From Actinomycetota bacterium (GTDB taxonomy: Bacteria > Actinomycetota > Rubrobacteria > Rubrobacterales > Rubrobacteraceae), in assembly GCA_004563715.1 (NCBI GenBank), contig SIRX01000146.1, positions 1 to 61,400 of the forward strand: a stretch of DNA of 61,400 nucleotides. The letters are read 5' to 3'. This document shows, piece after piece, positions 40,496 to 49,358 of this stretch. The notes beneath the pieces are model-generated. The model was given only the letters and a program-made list of their open reading frames with translations. It made no database searches and was not told where the DNA came from. A program made the position numbers and the translations under genes. Within the stretch, counting starts at the first letter, position 1. Each line of letters starts with the position of its first letter.

Positions 40496-40600
40496 TTGTG
40501 CAACTGTCGTTTACTATGGTGTATATTCCGGGATGCTGTTTTATGGTCGCCCGCCCGGATAAATCGTAAACTCCCTGCTCAAGCGTCTCGGAGGGATGAC

Positions 40601-41863
40601 TTGCCAGACCACATTGACTTCAATCGCGTTCAGGAACGGTCGGCCCCGGGTTCGACGAACGGTGCCTCGCGCCGCGACGACATATTCGACAAGACACATG
40701 CTTTTACCCGGGCCGACGAGGCGATGGCCCTCGGGGTCTACCCGTACTTCAAGCCGATCTCCGGGCAGGGCACCGGCACCGTCGTGGTCGACGGGCGGGA
40801 GATGATCATTACCGGCTCCAACGACTACCTGGGGCTTACCCAGGACCCGCGCTTGCAGGAGGCGGCGTCCGCCGTCTTCGACCGGTACGGTACGAGCTGC
40901 ACCGGCTCGCGGTTTCTGACGGGCACGCTGGAGCTGCATGAGGAGCTGGAGCGGCGGCTGGCGGGCTTCATGGGCGCCGAGGCGGTGCTCACGTTCAGCA
41001 CCGGCTTTCTTGGGGCGCTCTCGGTGATCAGCGCCCTCGCGGGGCGTCAGGACATCCTGTACTTCGACCGGGAGAACCACGCCTGCCTCTACGACGGGGC
41101 GCGGCTCTCGTTCGGCACGCTGCGCAAGTACCGCCACAACGACCTGGAAGACCTGGAGCGCCTGCTGGAGAAAGACGCGGGCAAGCCCGGGGGGCGCATG
41201 ATCGTCACCGACGGCGTGTTCTCGATGAGCGGGCACGTCGCCGACCTGCCGGGCATCGTCGAGCTCGCCCGGACCTACGGGGCCCGGGTAGCCGTGGACG
41301 ACGCCCACGCCACCGGCGTGCTCGGCGCTTCCGGACGCGGGACGCCGGAGCACTTCGGGCTCCAAGGCGAGATAGACCTGGTCATAGGGACCTTCTCGAA
41401 ATCCTTCGCCTCCGTGGGCGGTTTCGTCGCCGGCCCGGAGCCGGTCGTGAAGTACGTAAAGCACCACGCCCGGCCGTTCATCTTTACCGCCGCGCTCCCG
41501 GCCATGCAGGTCGCCGCCACCCTCAAGGCCTTAGACATCATGGAGACCGAGCCCCAGCACCGCGAGAAGCTGCTGGCGAACGCCGAGCGGTTGCGCGGGG
41601 GCTTGGGCGGCCTCGGCTACGACACTCTAGGCTCCGAGACGCCCATAGTGCCCGTCGTCATAGGGCCGGACGACCTGACGGTGATCTTCTGGAAGGCCCT
41701 CTGGGAGGGCGGCGTGTTCACCACCCCGGCCTTGCCACCCGGCGTCCCGCAGAACCAGAGCCTCATCCGCACCAGCGTCAACGCCACCCACACCACTCAG
41801 CAGGTGGACGCCCTGATCGAGGTCTTCTCCAGGGTCGGCCGGGACCTGGGCGTAATCGGCTAG
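40601..41863 (+). CDS. Serine palmitoyltransferase-like alpha-oxoamine synthase
   Basis: A 420-residue PLP enzyme of the alpha-oxoamine synthase family, which condenses an amino acid with an acyl-CoA. GTSCTGSRFLTGTLELHEELE and the PLP-lysine region TFSKSFASVGGFVAG (Lys267) resemble bacterial serine palmitoyltransferases more than AONS (biotin) or KBL (threonine degradation), whose equivalents read differently (GSRLVSGNHxLH; TLGKA). PLP partner motif VDDAHATG and the HH-motif HACLYDGA are present. TTG 40601 has GGAGGG 5 nt upstream. The following bCerS-like and reductase genes support a sphingoid base role. No biotin genes are near. Confidence 0.8.
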   Translation: MPDHIDFNRVQERSAPGSTNGASRRDDIFDKTHAFTRADEAMALGVYPYFKPISGQGTGTVVVDGREMIITGSNDYLGLTQDPRLQEAASAVFDRYGTSCTGSRFLTGTLELHEELERRLAGFMGAEAVLTFSTGFLGALSVISALAGRQDILYFDRENHACLYDGARLSFGTLRKYRHNDLEDLERLLEKDAGKPGGRMIVTDGVFSMSGHVADLPGIVELARTYGARVAVDDAHATGVLGASGRGTPEHFGLQGEIDLVIGTFSKSFASVGGFVAGPEPVVKYVKHHARPFIFTAALPAMQVAATLKALDIMETEPQHREKLLANAERLRGGLGGLGYDTLGSETPIVPVVIGPDDLTVIFWKALWEGGVFTTPALPPGVPQNQSLIRTSVNATHTTQQVDALIEVFSRVGRDLGVIG

Positions 41864-41875
41864 GAGACAGGCCCG

Positions 41876-43015
41876 TTGGCCGGCCGGCAAGCAGTAGGTT
41901 CAGGAGCCCCAAAGGTCCGGCCCGTCGGGACCCGCCGAGACCTCACGCGGTTTATCCGGTACCCGTTCAAGAAGTACCGGGAAGACCCGTGCTGGGTGCC
42001 GCCCCTGGTTTTCGACGAGCGGCGGAAGTTCGACCCTAGAAAGAACCCCTTCTACGAGCACGCCCGGATCCGGCTCTTTCTCGCCGAGCGAGACGGAGAG
42101 GTGGTGGGGCGCGTCGCCGCCATAGACGACGACAACCACAACGCGGCCCACGCGGAGAACCTGGTCTTCTTCGGCTTTTTCGAGGCGGAGGACGCGGCGG
42201 CCGCCGGGGCGCTGCTGGCGGAGATAGAGGCGTGGGGGAGGAGCCTCGGCCGAAACGCGGTGCGGGGTCCGGCGAACCCCTCGATGAACGACGGCGCGGG
42301 CTTCCAGGTGGACGCATTCGATACGCAGCCCTTTGTCATGATGCCGTACAACCCGCCCGCGTACCCACGCTACGCCGAGGCCGCCGGTTACGAAAAGGTC
42401 AAAGACCTCTACGCCTACCTATTCGAGCGCGACTGGGAGGTGGGAGAGAAGATCGGGCGCCTCGCCACCCGGGTCCGCCGCCGCTACGATCCCGTCGTCC
42501 GCACCGGCGACGCAAAGAACTTCGACGCGGAGCTCGGGCTGTTCAAGAAGCTCTACAACGAAGCCTGGGTAGAGAACTGGGGCTTCGTGCGCTACACCGA
42601 CGCCGAGTTCGACCGTCTCGCCCGCGAGTTGAAGCTCGTCGTGGACCCGGACCTGGTGGTCTTTGTCGAGCTTGGAGGCGAGGTGGCCGGCCTGGGCCTC
42701 TGCCTGCCCGACGTAAACCAGGTGCTCAAAAAGGCCCGCGGCAGGATCTTCCCCAGCGGCCTGATGGCGTTCCTGAACCGCAAACGGATCGTAGACCAGA
42801 TCCGGCTCGTGATCCTGGGCGTCATGCCCCGCTTCCGCGGCAGGGGGCTCGAAACGGTGATCATCGACGAGCTCTACCGCCACGCCATCCGGAAGGGCTA
42901 CCGGCGCTGCGAGTGCTCGTGGGTGCTGGAGGACAACCGGGCGGTGATGCGCGGCCTGGAGGCGGCGGGCGCCCAACGCTATAAAACTTACCGAATGTAC
43001 CAGAAGCCTCTGTAG
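41876..43015 (+). CDS. GNAT-fold acyltransferase similar to bacterial ceramide synthase (bCerS)
   Basis: A 379-residue soluble acyltransferase of the large two-lobed GNAT type. Landmarks are FIRYPFKKYREDPCWVPPLV near the start, RIRLFLAERDGEVVGRVAAI, NPSMNDGAGFQVDAFD and MMPYNPPAYPRYAEAAGYEKVKDLYAY. The C-terminal GNAT A-motif is LGVMPRFRGRGLETVIIDELY, followed by CSWVLEDNRAVMRGLEAAGA. This arrangement is that of the Caulobacter ceramide synthase family, which N-acylates sphingoid bases. TTG 41876 start (AGGAG upstream) 12 bp after the spt-like gene implies an operon. Specificity is inferred from family and context. Confidence 0.82.
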   Translation: MAGRQAVGSGAPKVRPVGTRRDLTRFIRYPFKKYREDPCWVPPLVFDERRKFDPRKNPFYEHARIRLFLAERDGEVVGRVAAIDDDNHNAAHAENLVFFGFFEAEDAAAAGALLAEIEAWGRSLGRNAVRGPANPSMNDGAGFQVDAFDTQPFVMMPYNPPAYPRYAEAAGYEKVKDLYAYLFERDWEVGEKIGRLATRVRRRYDPVVRTGDAKNFDAELGLFKKLYNEAWVENWGFVRYTDAEFDRLARELKLVVDPDLVVFVELGGEVAGLGLCLPDVNQVLKKARGRIFPSGLMAFLNRKRIVDQIRLVILGVMPRFRGRGLETVIIDELYRHAIRKGYRRCECSWVLEDNRAVMRGLEAAGAQRYKTYRMYQKPL

Positions 43016-43021
43016 GCCCGG

Positions 43022-43987
43022 ATGCCGGAGAGCGTACTGGTGACCGGAGCAACGGGCTTTCTCGGCAGCCACATGGCGGAGGCCTTCGCCGCGGCGGGAT
43101 ACGAGGTGCGCTGCGGCCTGCGGGCCACGAGCGAACCGCGTTGGATCTCCGGCCTTCCCGTCGAGCCCGTGCCGCTCGACCTCGACCGTCCGGCGGACCT
43201 GACCCGCGCGCTGCGCGGCGTGGACGTGGTGGCCCACGCCGCCGGTATTACCCGGGCGCGCCGGCCGGAGGACTACGAGCGGGTGAACGCCGTCGGCACC
43301 CGGCGGCTCGCCGCCGCCGCGCGAGAAGCCGGGGTGCGGCGCTTCGTACTGGTCAGCAGCCTCGCCGCCCGCGGCCCCGACGGCTTCGGGTATCCCGCCA
43401 GCGCCTACGGCCGCAGCAAGCTGGCGGCCGAGACGTATCTCCGCTCCCTCGGTGGGCCGATGAAGACCGTCGTCCTGCGTCCAGCCGCCGTCTACGGACC
43501 GCGCGACACGGACCTCCTACCCCTGTTCCGGATGGCGGCCTCCGGCCTGCTCGCGCTCCCGGCCGGACCGGGCCTCCTGCAACCCGTATACGCGGCCGAC
43601 GCGGCGGCCGCCGTCCTGGCCGCCGCCCGCGAGCCGGAGGTAGGCTCCGGACCCTTCCCGGTGGCCGAGGCCGCCCGCTACACGTGGCCGGAGGTCGCCC
43701 GCCATCTGGCTGCCACGCTCGGATATTCCGTCCGCACCGTTCGCCTCCCGGCCGCGGCTTTCCGGATAGGGGGCCGCCTGGCCGAACGGGCGGCGAAGCT
43801 CCAGGGCTCCCCACCACTCTTCGACGAACGTCGGGCCGAGGACCTAGCCGTTTACACCTGGACCTGTGACCCCTCGGCTACGGAGAAAGCGCTCGGGTGG
43901 CGGGCGGAGGTGCCGCTGCCGGGGGGCCTGGCGCGGACCGCCCGTTGGTACGAGGAGGCGGGTTGGCTCCGTACCGGGTCGCGATGA
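43022..43987 (+). CDS. NAD-dependent epimerase/reductase, CerR-like
   Basis: A 321-residue extended SDR. NAD-binding motif VTGATGFLGSHMAEAF at residue 6; catalytic YGRSK with upstream Ser (LVSSLAARGPDG) near residue 120; RPAAVYGPRDTDLLPLFRM; C-terminal half with TWPEVARHL. In Caulobacter an enzyme of this class (CerR) reduces the 3-keto group of 3-ketoceramide. It begins 6 bp after the acyltransferase gene and its stop overlaps the next start (ATGA). Because the family is broad, sugar or dihydroflavonol-type substrates cannot be excluded by sequence alone. Confidence 0.8.
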   Translation: MPESVLVTGATGFLGSHMAEAFAAAGYEVRCGLRATSEPRWISGLPVEPVPLDLDRPADLTRALRGVDVVAHAAGITRARRPEDYERVNAVGTRRLAAAAREAGVRRFVLVSSLAARGPDGFGYPASAYGRSKLAAETYLRSLGGPMKTVVLRPAAVYGPRDTDLLPLFRMAASGLLALPAGPGLLQPVYAADAAAAVLAAAREPEVGSGPFPVAEAARYTWPEVARHLAATLGYSVRTVRLPAAAFRIGGRLAERAAKLQGSPPLFDERRAEDLAVYTWTCDPSATEKALGWRAEVPLPGGLARTARWYEEAGWLRTGSR

Positions 43988-45126
43988 GCGGCCGGCCCCT
44001 CATCCTCTTCGCCACCATCGCCGCCGGCGGCGGGCACGTGGCGACGGCCCGGGCGATGGCCGAGGCCGTCGAGCTTCTCCACCCGGGGCGCTTCGACCTG
44101 CGCGTCTCGGACTACATGAAAGAGGTCGGCGTCGCGGGCCTCGACCGGCGGCACAAGGACTCCTGGCGCCGGGCGTTGCGCTACCCGGTCCTCGCCCGCA
44201 CCGGCCAGCGCCTCATAGACGCCTCCCCCCGGCTGACCGTCGCCGCGCAGCGCCGCCTGCTGAGAGGTTTTGCCCGCGCCGCCGCCGAGGACCTGGGCAG
44301 AAAAAGGCCGCTGCTCGTCGTCTCCAACCACGGCCTCATCACCGCGGGGCTGGCCGAGGCTCGGCGGCTCCACGGCCTGCGGGTTCCGGTCCTCACCTTC
44401 GCCACCGAGCCTCACGGCATCAGCGCCTACTGGGCGGAGCCGCGGGCGGAGCACGTCGTGGTTCCTTCTGAGAGCATCCGCCGCCGGCTCGCGCGTTTCG
44501 GCGTGCCGGCGGCGAAGCTGGCGGTGGTGGGCTACCCGGTGCGGCAGGCGTTCCTGAACGCGCCCACGAAAGAGGAGGCCCGGGCCCAACTGGGCCTTCG
44601 GCAACGCCTCACCTGCCTCGCCGCCTTCGGGGGCGAGGGTGTAGGAGGCAACCAGCGGCGCCTGGTGCGTACCCTCCTGGACTCGGAGACCGCCCCGCAG
44701 GTCGTCGTGGTTACCGGGCGCAACCCGGCCGCGAGGGCCGCGCTGGAGGAGCTTGCCGTCGAAGACGACCGGCTCCGGGTAGAAGGTTACGTGGACGACG
44801 TCGCCTCCTACCTGGCGGCGGCCGACGTGTTCGTGGGCAAGGCGGGGCCGGCCTCGGTCTACGAGGCGCTGGCGGTGGGGCGGCCCGCGATCCTCACCGG
44901 CTACGCCGGCCTGAACGAGCGCGGCGTAGCCCGCTTTGTCGAGCGAGAGGAGATGGGCGTCTTCGCCGGGACCGGCGCGAGGTTCCGGGAGAGCCTGCGG
45001 CACTACGCCTCAAACCCGGCACTTCTGGAGGAGACGGCGCTGCGGTGCCGGGCGCTGGACCTGGGGTACGCGACGGAGCGCCTGGCCCGCTACGTCGTCC
45101 GCTACGCGCTGGAGAGGGGTAGCTAG
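43984..45126 (+). CDS. MGDG-synthase-like glycosyltransferase (GT28 family)
   Basis: A 380-residue glycosyltransferase. N-terminal part ILFATIAAGGGHVATARAMAEA is the MGDG synthase/MurG-like acceptor domain; the C-terminal donor half contains FGGEGVGGNQRRLV, VVVTGRNPAAR and the UDP-sugar-binding region YVDDVASYLAAADVFVGKAGPASVYEALAVGRPAIL. The family transfers a sugar from UDP-sugar to diacylglycerol or other lipids. Overlapping the reductase gene, it may glycosylate the lipid product of this locus, that is, make a glycosphingolipid (inference). ATG 43984 is chosen by ATGA overlap. Confidence 0.85.
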   Translation: MSGRPLILFATIAAGGGHVATARAMAEAVELLHPGRFDLRVSDYMKEVGVAGLDRRHKDSWRRALRYPVLARTGQRLIDASPRLTVAAQRRLLRGFARAAAEDLGRKRPLLVVSNHGLITAGLAEARRLHGLRVPVLTFATEPHGISAYWAEPRAEHVVVPSESIRRRLARFGVPAAKLAVVGYPVRQAFLNAPTKEEARAQLGLRQRLTCLAAFGGEGVGGNQRRLVRTLLDSETAPQVVVVTGRNPAARAALEELAVEDDRLRVEGYVDDVASYLAAADVFVGKAGPASVYEALAVGRPAILTGYAGLNERGVARFVEREEMGVFAGTGARFRESLRHYASNPALLEETALRCRALDLGYATERLARYVVRYALERGS

Positions 45127-45127
45127 C

Positions 45128-46180
45128 GTGCTCCGAAACTTGCTGGTCCGGACCGGGGTCTTCCTCGCGCTCAGCCTGGGACTCGGTATTTCGGGCCTGT
45201 ACCTGGTGGCCGGCGCGGAGGTTTTCCGGGCTGAGACCTACCGCGTCAAGGACCTGAGCGCCGGCATACTTTTCGTGTGCCTGGCGGCGTTCCTGATGGA
45301 GTGGCTGATGCCGCCCGTGAGGCTCCTGCTGTTGTGCAAAAACCAGCGCGTAGGCATGACCTACCGTGCGGCGCTGCTCGTGCACCTCGTCTCGGTCTTC
45401 GGGGCCGTGGTCACGCCGGGCAACGCCGGGCAGGCCCCGGCGGCCGTGGCGGCAATCAAAAGCACCGGCGCGCCCCTGGGCAAGAGCCTCGGGGTCGTAC
45501 TGCAGGTCTTTATCCTGGACCTGTTCTTCTTTGCCTGGGCCGTACCGCTGAGCCTCTTGTTCTTGATCTCCACCCGCGCCGTCGCGCTGCCCGGGAGCGT
45601 CGAGGCCGCAGCGCTCCTGATGTCTGTCCTGGCGCTCGCCGGAGCCGTGGCGCTAGGCCGCTATCCCCGGCCCTTAATGGCCGCGCTGCACGCCCTGGCG
45701 AAGCCTCCGCCGCTCCGCCGCTTCGAAGCCCGGCTGCGCCGGGTCGCCCGGGATTACGGCCGGAGCGTCTGGCTCTACCGGAGCACGCCCCTCGCCCGGC
45801 GCCTGGCGCTCAACACCGTGACCGCCGTCCACTGGCTCGCCGCGTTCGTTCTCCTCTGGGGGCTGCTCGAGGTCTACGGCGTGGACGTGGGCCTCGGGGT
45901 GACGCTGGCGCTGCTCAACATCCTCACGCTGGTCTCCCAGGCCGTGCCCACACCGGGCGGGGCGGGTTTCGTGGAGGCCGCCGTAGGTTTGAGCCTCGGC
46001 ACCTACGCCACGGGTGGCAGCGTGGCCGCGGCCCTGCTCATCTGGCGGCTGCTGGCCTTCAATGTCATCTTCCTGATCGGTCCCGCTGCTGGCTGGCTTC
46101 TGTACCTCCGGGCGGGCGGCCCAGGCCGGAGAGCCGCAGAAAGAAAGCGTCCCGGACGGCGGTCGGCAGCAGGGCCATGA
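45128..46180 (+). CDS. Lysylphosphatidylglycerol-synthase-type transmembrane protein (flippase-like)
   Basis: A 350-residue protein with about eight helices (PF03706-type). Signature residues lie in FGAVVTPGNAGQAPAAVAAIKSTGA (about 95) and VPTPGGAGFVEAAVGLSL (about 277). It lacks the soluble lysyl-transferase domain of MprF, so a lipid flippase or export role is more likely than lipid lysinylation. Start GTG 45128 is 1 bp after the glycosyltransferase stop. The C-terminal 30 residues (RRAAERKRPGRRSAAGP) are basic and overlap, on the opposite strand, the end of the converging SDR fusion gene. Confidence 0.85.
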   Translation: MLRNLLVRTGVFLALSLGLGISGLYLVAGAEVFRAETYRVKDLSAGILFVCLAAFLMEWLMPPVRLLLLCKNQRVGMTYRAALLVHLVSVFGAVVTPGNAGQAPAAVAAIKSTGAPLGKSLGVVLQVFILDLFFFAWAVPLSLLFLISTRAVALPGSVEAAALLMSVLALAGAVALGRYPRPLMAALHALAKPPPLRRFEARLRRVARDYGRSVWLYRSTPLARRLALNTVTAVHWLAAFVLLWGLLEVYGVDVGLGVTLALLNILTLVSQAVPTPGGAGFVEAAVGLSLGTYATGGSVAAALLIWRLLAFNVIFLIGPAAGWLLYLRAGGPGRRAAERKRPGRRSAAGP

Positions 46181-47930
46181 CGCGGGCCGGGACCGCGTCG
46201 AGCGTGGCGAGCCGGCGCGCCGGCGTCCGCCGCGAGAGCGCCGCTTTTACCACGGTGTCCGCCACCTTCTCGACGCTGGTCGCGTTGCCGGTGCCCCACA
46301 GCGGGCTCTCCAGGAAAGCCTCCAGGTAGCCGCCCCAGCCGTCGCGGGCGGCGGAGGCCTGCTTTCTCAGGGAAGCCTTCGCCTTCTCGGCGAAGCCGGT
46401 GTCTATCGCGCCGGGGATGAGCACCACGACTTCCACGCCCCAGGGCTTGAGCTCCATGCGCAGGGCGTCGCTCATGGCTTCGAGGGCGTATTTCGAGGCC
46501 GAGTAGGCTCCCATAAACGGCGTCGTGACAGAGCCGTTGGTGGAGCTGATGTTGATGATGCGGCCCCAACCCCGCTCCCGCATCCCGGGCGCCACCGCCC
46601 GCGCCAGCAGGAGGGGGCCGTAGGCGTTGACGCCGAACTGCAGCTCCACGTCCCCGAACGCCTGCCTTTCGAGGGCGTCCGGCCTGGCTAGCCCCGCGAC
46701 GTTTACCAGCAGGTCCACGGCTCCGCCCCGGCTTTCTATCTCCTCCACGGCCGCCGCGACGCTCTCTTTGGAGGTGACGTCCAGGGCGAGTGGGTGTGCG
46801 TCCTCGATGCCTGCGGGCGGCTCCAGGTCCGCCGCCCAGACCGTTATTCCCTTTCCGGCCAGCTTGCGGGCCACGGCCCGGCCCAGGCCGCCCGCCGCGC
46901 CCGTGACGAGCGCGACCGAGGGCCGCCGCAGCAGGCCCGCACGCCGCAGCCACGCCTCCGTCTCCCGCAAGCCGGCCTCCAGGCTCACCTCGGGCTCGAA
47001 GCCCAGGATTCGTCTCGCTCTCTCTCCGGCGTACGTCGCGCGGCTCGTCATCACGCCGACCATCTCGGGGACGGCGCGGGGCCGCCGGCCGAGGGCGCGC
47101 TCCGCCCTCTCTGCCGCCCGGGCGCCGGCCCGGGCCAGCGGGGCCGGTACGCGGCGCAGGGGTTTCCCCGTCATCGTTGCGTAGGAGCCCAGAAACTCGT
47201 TCCACGTCACGGGTCCCGCGCCGACGTTGAACGTCTCGCCCGCGGCCTCCGGGACGGAGCCGGCCAGCTCGAAAGCCCGGGCCACATCCTCAACGTAGAC
47301 CGGGTCCGCCAGGTCTTCACCGTCGCCGATCACGACGGGCAGCCCTCTGGAGATCGCGGCGAACGGCGCCTCCGTCCAGGACGGAGACCCGGGACCGTAG
47401 ATCATGGTCGGCCGCAACACCACGAGATCCAGCCCGGCACGCCCGGCCTCGCGCCGCGCCGCCCTCTCGGCCTCTATCTTGGTATCCCCGTAGAGGTCGC
47501 CTACGCTTCGGAGCGGCCGCTCCTCGGTGACGAACCCTTCCCGCACCGGGCCGTACACCGCGATGCTGCTCGCCAGCACCACCCGCCGCGTACCGGCCTC
47601 CGCGGCGGCCCGCACCACGTTCTCCGTGCCGCCGACGTTCACCGCGTAGGCCAGCTGCTCATCGAAAGGCGTCCCCATCCAGGCCGCCAGGTGGAACACC
47701 ACCTGACATCCCCGGACGAGCTCCCCGACGTTTCTGGCCTCCCGAACGTCGCCACGCACCGGCTCCGCCCCGGTGCTGCCCAGGCGTTCCGCACCGGCTT
47801 GGTCGCGCACCAGCCCCCGGACGCGATGCCCCTGCTGCACGAGACGGCGAACCAGCGCCGTTCCCAGGGAGCCTCCGGCCCCGGTGACCGCGACCGCCGC
47901 CGGGGAGCTTCTCGTTTCGTTGTTCTGCAC
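46065..47930 (-). CDS. Fused NAD-epimerase/reductase and classical SDR protein
   Basis: A 621-residue two-enzyme fusion. Residues about 1-330 form an extended SDR (VTGAGGSLGTALVRRL; YGDTKIEAERAARR; LRPTMIYGPGSPSW). Residues about 335-600 form a classical SDR (VTGAAGGLGRAVARKL; NVAGLARP; NISSTNGSV; YSASKYALEAM) resembling 3-ketosphinganine/acyl-ketoreductase enzymes such as KDSR. Both active sites look intact. Its stop overlaps the end of the plus-strand flippase-like gene by 116 bp. GTG start at 47930 overlaps the stop of the GT4 gene by 1 bp. Role in lipid ketone reduction is suggested by location only. Confidence 0.85.
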   Translation of the reverse strand: MQNNETRSSPAAVAVTGAGGSLGTALVRRLVQQGHRVRGLVRDQAGAERLGSTGAEPVRGDVREARNVGELVRGCQVVFHLAAWMGTPFDEQLAYAVNVGGTENVVRAAAEAGTRRVVLASSIAVYGPVREGFVTEERPLRSVGDLYGDTKIEAERAARREAGRAGLDLVVLRPTMIYGPGSPSWTEAPFAAISRGLPVVIGDGEDLADPVYVEDVARAFELAGSVPEAAGETFNVGAGPVTWNEFLGSYATMTGKPLRRVPAPLARAGARAAERAERALGRRPRAVPEMVGVMTSRATYAGERARRILGFEPEVSLEAGLRETEAWLRRAGLLRRPSVALVTGAAGGLGRAVARKLAGKGITVWAADLEPPAGIEDAHPLALDVTSKESVAAAVEEIESRGGAVDLLVNVAGLARPDALERQAFGDVELQFGVNAYGPLLLARAVAPGMRERGWGRIINISSTNGSVTTPFMGAYSASKYALEAMSDALRMELKPWGVEVVVLIPGAIDTGFAEKAKASLRKQASAARDGWGGYLEAFLESPLWGTGNATSVEKVADTVVKAALSRRTPARRLATLDAVPARVMALLPTAVRDAFFLRLSGLGRPPGGTEASQQRDRSGR

Positions 47931-49123
47931 TATAGGTCCGTCCTCTCGTCCGGTTTCTCTCTACGTGCGGCCGTCGCCGGGGCCAGCAGTGAGGCGTAGA
48001 TCTCCTCCAGCCGGCGTCCGCTCTCGTGTACGTCGTGCGCCCGGGCAGTCCGCCCGGCGTTTCGTTGCAGACGCCGGAGCCTCTCCGGGTCCTGCAGCAG
48101 GCCGTCTACGGCTCGCGCCGCTCTCTCCAGATCGTCCGCCTCGTAGCAGAGACCGCAGCCGGCTTGCCGGACCATGTCGCACACCGCGCTGGTCGCCGAC
48201 CGGAGGGCTATTACGGCGCATCCCCGCGCCATCGCCTCCAGGGTGGCGATGCTCTGGAGCTCGGTCGGAGAAGGCATCAAGAACAAATCGCTGGCCTCGA
48301 GAAGGTCCTGCTTCTCCGTTTCCGGCACGTAGCCCAGAAAGCTCACCACTTCTTCCAGACCCAGCTCCTTTCTGCGCCGCTCCAACGGCTGGCGCAGCGG
48401 CCCCGCACCGGAGATCAACAGTCGGAAGTCCCGGCGTCGCGCTGCCAGGGCCGCGGCTATGTCCAGCAGGTCCAGGGGACGTTTCTCGTGCGAGAGGCGG
48501 CCTACGTGGGCGAGCAGGAACTTGTCGCCGGCCAGATGCCGCCCCCGCAGGTTGGCCGCGCGTTCGCGGCTGCCGGGGTCTCTGTGCGGGAGCCGGAGCC
48601 CGTTGGAGACGACGTGGACCGGGCGGGAGGTGTAGGAAGCCGCCAGCCGGGCGGCGAACGGCGTGGGCGCGACCAGGCAGTCCGGGTGGCGGTAGAGGAA
48701 CGTATACCAGGCGTGCAGCACCCGGGAGACCAGAGGCCGCAGCCGCTCGAAGTGGAGCGTCATGCTCTCCTCCTGGGTGTGGAAGCCCATCACGGCCGGC
48801 ACGTCCGCCCTGCGGACGGCCTGGAGCGCCCGCAGGGCGAGCGGCGTCGGGGTGTTGACCTGGAGCACTTCGGCCCAGGTTACCATCTCCGCTATGGCCG
48901 ACCGGCGGGGCAGGGCGAGTTGCGTCTGCTTTCCGCCCGGGCGCCACGCGGGCAACCGGGTGACGCGCACGCCGGGGGGCGGACCGGCCGGCGACTTCTC
49001 GGTTCCGGCCAGGGCACGCACCTCGTGGCCGCGGGCCAGCAGGGCCTCGATGTGCCCCTCCGTGGCGGCGGCCTGGCCGCCGTAACCGGGGTACAGGTCG
49101 TCGGCGACGAACGCTACGCGCAT
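47930..49123 (-). CDS. Glycosyltransferase family 4 protein
   Basis: A 397-residue cytoplasmic GT-B glycosyltransferase. The N-terminal acceptor domain starts RVAFVADDLYPGYGGQAAATEGH. The donor domain (about 200-370) has LAHVGRLSHEKRPLDLLDIA, the nucleotide-sugar motif FLMPSPTELQSIATLEAMARGCAVIAL (E-x7-E type) and RQAGCGLCYEADDLE. Close in type to enzymes glycosylating lipids (for example alpha-glucosyl or mannosyl transferases of the GT4 family). ATG 49123 is preferred; the frame extends to TTG 49207 with no ribosome binding site. It precedes the double SDR gene by 1 bp overlap. Confidence 0.87.
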   Translation of the reverse strand: MRVAFVADDLYPGYGGQAAATEGHIEALLARGHEVRALAGTEKSPAGPPPGVRVTRLPAWRPGGKQTQLALPRRSAIAEMVTWAEVLQVNTPTPLALRALQAVRRADVPAVMGFHTQEESMTLHFERLRPLVSRVLHAWYTFLYRHPDCLVAPTPFAARLAASYTSRPVHVVSNGLRLPHRDPGSRERAANLRGRHLAGDKFLLAHVGRLSHEKRPLDLLDIAAALAARRRDFRLLISGAGPLRQPLERRRKELGLEEVVSFLGYVPETEKQDLLEASDLFLMPSPTELQSIATLEAMARGCAVIALRSATSAVCDMVRQAGCGLCYEADDLERAARAVDGLLQDPERLRRLQRNAGRTARAHDVHESGRRLEEIYASLLAPATAARREKPDERTDL

Positions 49124-49358
49124 CCGCCTGCGCGCCCGGGTGTTCGGGGTGTGGTGGCGGGGATCTTCGGCACCTCCGTCTTCTGAGATCTTTTTGTTTT
49201 CCAGCAAGAAAGACTACACCACACGGCCGGGAGCGGTGAGTTAGTTACCGGCGATGGCATCCCCGGTTTGCTAGACTCTCGGAGATGGATGGCTTGCTTG
49301 TGCCGGGTTTGACGAGAAGGACGTCGGGTCCCGGTCTGCAAAGGGTGAAGGGAAAAAC

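Follow-up and report, generated by a model that had tools for sequence, protein, structure and literature searches.

A fused pair of SDR domains in Rubrobacteraceae, kept with glycosyltransferase and flippase genes and proposed to invert a hydroxyl group

A stretch of 61,400 nucleotides from a Rubrobacteraceae assembly (3.47 Mb in 176 contigs, 99% complete), hereafter the window, was found to encode an extended SDR and a classical SDR joined in a single protein of 621 residues. The fused gene is shared by three genomes of the family, and in each of them it lies beside genes for a GT4-type glycosyltransferase, a GT28-like glycosyltransferase and a flippase-like membrane protein. We tentatively propose, as a possibility rather than an expectation, that the protein is a fused oxidoreductase of single origin that serves a glycolipid module made up of these partners, where it may invert a hydroxyl group, and that it stands outside ceramide backbone synthesis.

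Two intact SDR domains in one reading frame

The fused gene and the features that it encodes are as follows.

46065–47930, minus strand: fused extended SDR and classical SDR, 621 aa, GTG start (open frame, Pfam, orthologues, dN/dS)
46941–47897, minus strand: N-terminal extended SDR domain, residues 12–330 (Pfam Epimerase; AF2 pLDDT 93; nearest fold 3wj7)
47862–47885, minus strand: TGxxGxxG cofactor motif of the N domain, residues 16–23
47805–47807, minus strand: R42 after beta-2 of the N domain, NADP-type signature
47478–47492, minus strand: YxxxK catalytic motif of the N domain, Y147–K151 (invariant in alignment A3)
46131–46919, minus strand: C-terminal classical SDR domain, residues 338–600 (Pfam adh_short)
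46881–46904, minus strand: TGxxxGxG cofactor motif of the C domain, residues 343–350
46827–46829, minus strand: D368 at the beta-2 tip of the C domain, NAD-type signature (all three orthologues)
46491–46505, minus strand: YxxxK catalytic motif of the C domain, Y476–K480

The frame has the codon-position GC pattern of a coding gene (0.74/0.55/0.87). Its N-terminal part matched Pfam Epimerase (PF01370) over residues 13–237 with 154 bits, against 61 bits for NAD_binding_4, and possesses the TGxxGxxG motif, S121 and Y147xxxK151 of an extended SDR. The C-terminal part matched adh_short (PF00106) over residues 339–518 with 171 bits. It has the TGxxxGxG motif and the tetrad N435, S463, Y476 and K480 of a classical SDR, and its NNAG motif reads NVAG. 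Both active sites are thus intact, and the description of the region in an earlier note, as two complete reductase domains in one protein beside a lipid locus, was borne out. Nearly no linker separates the two domains: in the AF2 model the final N-domain helix stops at about residue 331, and the C-domain match begins at 338–339. The full-length AlphaFold model, built from three sequences, reached a pLDDT of 55, and the N domain modelled separately reached 93.

Recurrence of the fusion and its gene partners

The identical fused architecture was present over the whole length, at 69% identity, in two more Rubrobacteraceae assemblies, G005 (L005; 98% complete) and G017 (L004; 60% complete), which comprise one Rubrobacter MAG and one MAG of an uncultured actinobacterium. 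The presence/absence search found it in no further genome of the 40 from the class, nor did the matches listed for 397 genomes across the phylum include an extra fused frame. Three candidates were scored in each genome of the phylum search, and the collection scan relied on exact peptide patterns, so that distant fusions may escape them. In each domain of the fusion dN/dS was 0.16–0.26, which indicates purifying selection on both halves. Because the fused frame recurs at this level of identity and both domains are under such constraint, an assembly or frameshift error is very unlikely. The three fusion copies formed one clade in the N-domain tree (support 100/100) as well as in the C-domain tree (99/98), with L004 and L005 paired inside the clade in both. 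This is most simply read as a single fusion, after which both halves stayed under selection. When N-only, C-only and fused proteins were aligned together, the C rows seemed to land on the N domain, and this alignment was left out.

Two other candidates for a fused gene were rejected. L017, which matched across both domains, consists of two adjacent genes, and a supposed 764-aa fusion in L015 owes its additional part to an overlong read-through at the 5' end, its SDR starting at an internal ATG. Neighbouring extended and classical SDR genes were also seen in three unrelated bacteria (L006, 4398–9875; L010, 7980–13366; L041, 1526–7730), each pair beside a glycyl radical enzyme, and all three of these enzymes scored under every NCBIfam equivalog cut-off. 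As sources of the fusion these adjacent pairs were discarded: their N genes group elsewhere in the tree, their C genes sit on very long branches and are no nearer to the fusion than unrelated SDRs, and it is glycyl radical enzymes that they adjoin.

Three genes make up the stable surroundings of the fusion.

47930–49207, minus strand: GT4-type glycosyltransferase (Pfam; adjoins the fusion in three of three genomes)
45128–46180, plus strand: LPG_synthase_TM or flippase-like membrane protein, convergent with the fusion (GTG start from the sequence)
43981–45126, plus strand: GT28-like glycosyltransferase that resembles diglucosyl-diacylglycerol synthase (probable ATG start)

The GT4 gene lies upstream of the fusion on the same strand, and in the window its TAG stop shares one base with the GTG start of the fusion. 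Overlap of the GT4 stop with the fusion start is found in all three carriers (TAGTG in the window, ATGA in L004 and TTGA in L005), and the fusion is probably coupled translationally to the GT4 enzyme. In every carrier, moreover, the GT4–fusion pair is convergent with the GT28–flippase pair. The GT28 and GT4 genes face each other with no gene between them in G007 and G018. In the window the fusion and the flippase gene, which lie on opposite strands, share about 116 bases at their 3' ends (46065–46180), and L004 and L005 have comparable tail overlaps. The probable ATG start of the GT28-like gene overlaps the 3' end of the gene at 43022–43987. In L004 (5613–7103) and L005 (8868–9734) the GT28 gene is preceded by a membrane-type protein that has no Pfam match and takes the place of the serine palmitoyltransferase (Spt) set of the window. 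The constant company of the fusion is therefore GT4, GT28 and flippase, and Spt accompanies it only in the window. With three carriers, two of them from one genus, the shared neighbourhood partly reflects shared descent.

The neighbouring ceramide-type gene set

Next to this group, on the plus strand of the window, lie three genes outside the conserved company of the fusion.

40496–41863, plus strand: serine palmitoyltransferase-like enzyme (NF047600, 442 bits, below the cut-off of 640)
41876–43015, plus strand: GNAT acyltransferase, candidate bCerS
43022–43987, plus strand: CerR-like extended SDR

Spt, bCerS and CerR constitute the known bacterial ceramide backbone pathway, whose genes are often clustered (PMC11334938). 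The GNAT protein and the product of 43022–43987 were assigned as putative bCerS and CerR by gene order and domain type. Near orthologues of Spt (73–77%) were found in five relatives (G004, G006, G009, G051 and G054), always with GNAT and CerR-like genes after them. In six genomes, then, Spt is followed by GNAT and by a CerR-like extended SDR, as in the published three-gene pathway, and 40496–43987 is probably a ceramide backbone set in these actinobacteria. The set suggests the presence of ceramide-type lipids in part of the Rubrobacteraceae. Since it already looks complete in all six genomes, no further reductase is missing from it.

The distribution of the fusion does not follow that of this set. 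The fusion was absent from all five Spt-bearing relatives, which retain the set, and an Spt match was absent from both of the other fusion genomes, the 98% complete G005 and the 60% complete G017. Presence and absence over 40 genomes thus ruled out a link between fusion and Spt, and the fusion is no part of the set. The earlier note had suggested reduction of a ketosphingoid base as an example of the function, an idea that these genomes do not support; nor did any of the five Spt loci examined contain the two domains as separate neighbouring genes, another arrangement that it had raised. A sphingolipid gene next door is, in this instance, no ground for assigning the fusion to sphingolipid synthesis.

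In the window (43022–46180) and in G006 (L034, 5124–10684) the ceramide set runs straight into the GT28-like gene and the flippase gene. This run suggests synthesis and export of a glycosylceramide.

Cofactor signatures and possible reactions

The residues at the tip of beta-2 differ between the two halves of the fusion. A carboxylate at this position binds the two hydroxyls of the ribose, to the exclusion of NADP (PMC4777477), a rule of thumb from which the direction of a domain in the cell does not strictly follow. In the N domain the tip carries V41–R42, where the sister clade (L018, L020, L021 and L015) has Asp. The C-domain beta-2 reads TVWAAD, with A367–D368 at its end, in all three orthologues, and the seven nearest free-standing relatives read ATAR. 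Compared with their nearest relatives, the two halves look as if their cofactor types had been switched in opposite directions.

With an NADPH-type and an NAD-type site in one chain, a pair of oxidation and reduction fits better than two reductions. From these residues and the gene partners we infer the cofactor use, the directions of the half-reactions, the substrate and the coupling of the following scheme. The fusion would act in the same substrate line as the GT4 enzyme. Most likely, the NAD-type C domain would oxidise a hydroxyl to a ketone and the NADPH-type N domain would reduce the ketone again with the opposite stereochemistry, the keto intermediate being handed from one domain to the other within the fused chain. 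Overall, a hydroxyl would be inverted on the lipid part of a glycolipid or on a lipid-linked sugar. We place this scheme in the glycolipid module because the GT4–fusion overlap and the convergent GT28–flippase pair are kept in all three carriers, while fusion and Spt part company. In mycobacteria, DprE1 and DprE2 invert a hydroxyl on a lipid-linked sugar by oxidation followed by reduction, DprE1 being a flavoenzyme; the likeness to the mechanism suggested here would be one of working principle only. If the inversion proposal is true, a single polypeptide would combine an NAD-type SDR with one of NADPH type and thereby use the cell's two nicotinamide pools to power a one-way stereoinversion, which would be tied to glycolipid assembly and would indicate an undescribed glycolipid in Rubrobacteraceae. 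A narrower version, which we regard as speculative and unlikely in this exact form, is that of an inverter acting at the level of the lipid, its N domain changed from NAD- to NADP-type and its C domain from NADP- to NAD-type, redox-neutral within one polypeptide and devoted to such an undescribed glycolipid.

The main rival to hydroxyl inversion, which we consider rather doubtful, is the tailoring of a nucleotide sugar, in which the N domain would epimerise or oxidise an NDP-sugar, the C domain would reduce the keto-sugar and the product would be the donor of the GT4 enzyme. This reading agrees with the overlap of the fusion and glycosyltransferase genes and with the location of a partial homologue, L014, in a sugar-nucleotide cluster of the deoxysugar type. 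It also agrees with the relatives of the N domain. The best curated match was HpnA (TIGR03466), the 'hopanoid-associated sugar epimerase', at 160 bits over residues 13–332, which is below the cut-off of 367.65; the N domain differs from HpnA in being joined to a classical SDR and in having glycosyltransferases and a flippase as partners. Among the top fold matches of the N domain, UDP-sugar epimerases and related enzymes are the majority. The best over the whole length, however, is Gox2253 (PDB 3wj7; TM 0.81/0.81), which has the same LVR-type beta-2, although it is a stand-alone enzyme with 26% identity to the N domain. The Asn of the LRxxN signature in nucleotide-sugar enzymes contacts the UDP diphosphate (PMC12820599). 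Where such epimerases often have R-x-x-N, the N domain has R173-P174-T-M176, with Met in place of Asn, and R42 replaces the beta-2 Asp that holds NAD in these enzymes. The Asn is not universal, as MoeE5 has Thr at that site. To judge by R173–P174 and M176, the N domain differs from many epimerases of nucleotide sugars and fits a reductase-like group.

It appears unlikely that the fusion carries out a pair of successive reductions on some keto-lipid that is not a sphingoid base. The intact active sites in both domains and the adjoining lipid genes speak for such a pair, and this much of the coupled reductions envisaged in the earlier note stands; the combination of NADP-type and NAD-type residues suits them less well. 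The KDSR-like character ascribed to the C domain held only as far as a generic classical SDR. The KdsR model (NF049977; BT_0972) covers the C domain with 157 bits, sharing the classical fold and catalytic motifs, but its cut-off is 400 bits and the generic PRK06182 scored 201. In addition, the KdsR activity of BT_0972 is NADPH-dependent (PMC9278070), whereas the C domain has the NAD-type D368 in all three orthologues, and two of the three fusion genomes, G005 and G017, have no Spt partner, in keeping with the lack of any tie to Spt across genomes.

Quite unlikely, in our estimate, is a role specific to ceramide in the organism of the window, as an extra tailoring step on glycosylceramide. The genes for Spt, GNAT, CerR, GT28 and flippase do follow one another on one strand in the window and in G006. 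In G006, though, a DNA ligase gene comes after this full run of five and the fusion is missing, and G005 and G017 have the fusion without Spt.

Polypeptides with two SDR parts are already known. FCR1 (Rv3391) of M. tuberculosis and Maqu_2220 of Marinobacter are single chains of about 600–660 aa in which, as in the fusion, an extended-type N part precedes a classical SDR C part. That the fusion is a fatty acyl-CoA reductase of this kind, converting acyl-CoA to alcohol, is highly improbable despite the comparable size and a match to NCBIfam PRK07201 (NF005539; 657 positions, cut-off 549 bits), since it scored 122 bits with the C part as the best stretch, none of 40 family genomes passed that cut-off, and its N domain prefers Epimerase to NAD_binding_4. 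Its N domain is Epimerase- or HpnA-like rather than NAD_binding_4-like and it was found in only three Rubrobacteraceae; the fusion is a separate, new combination of known domain types.
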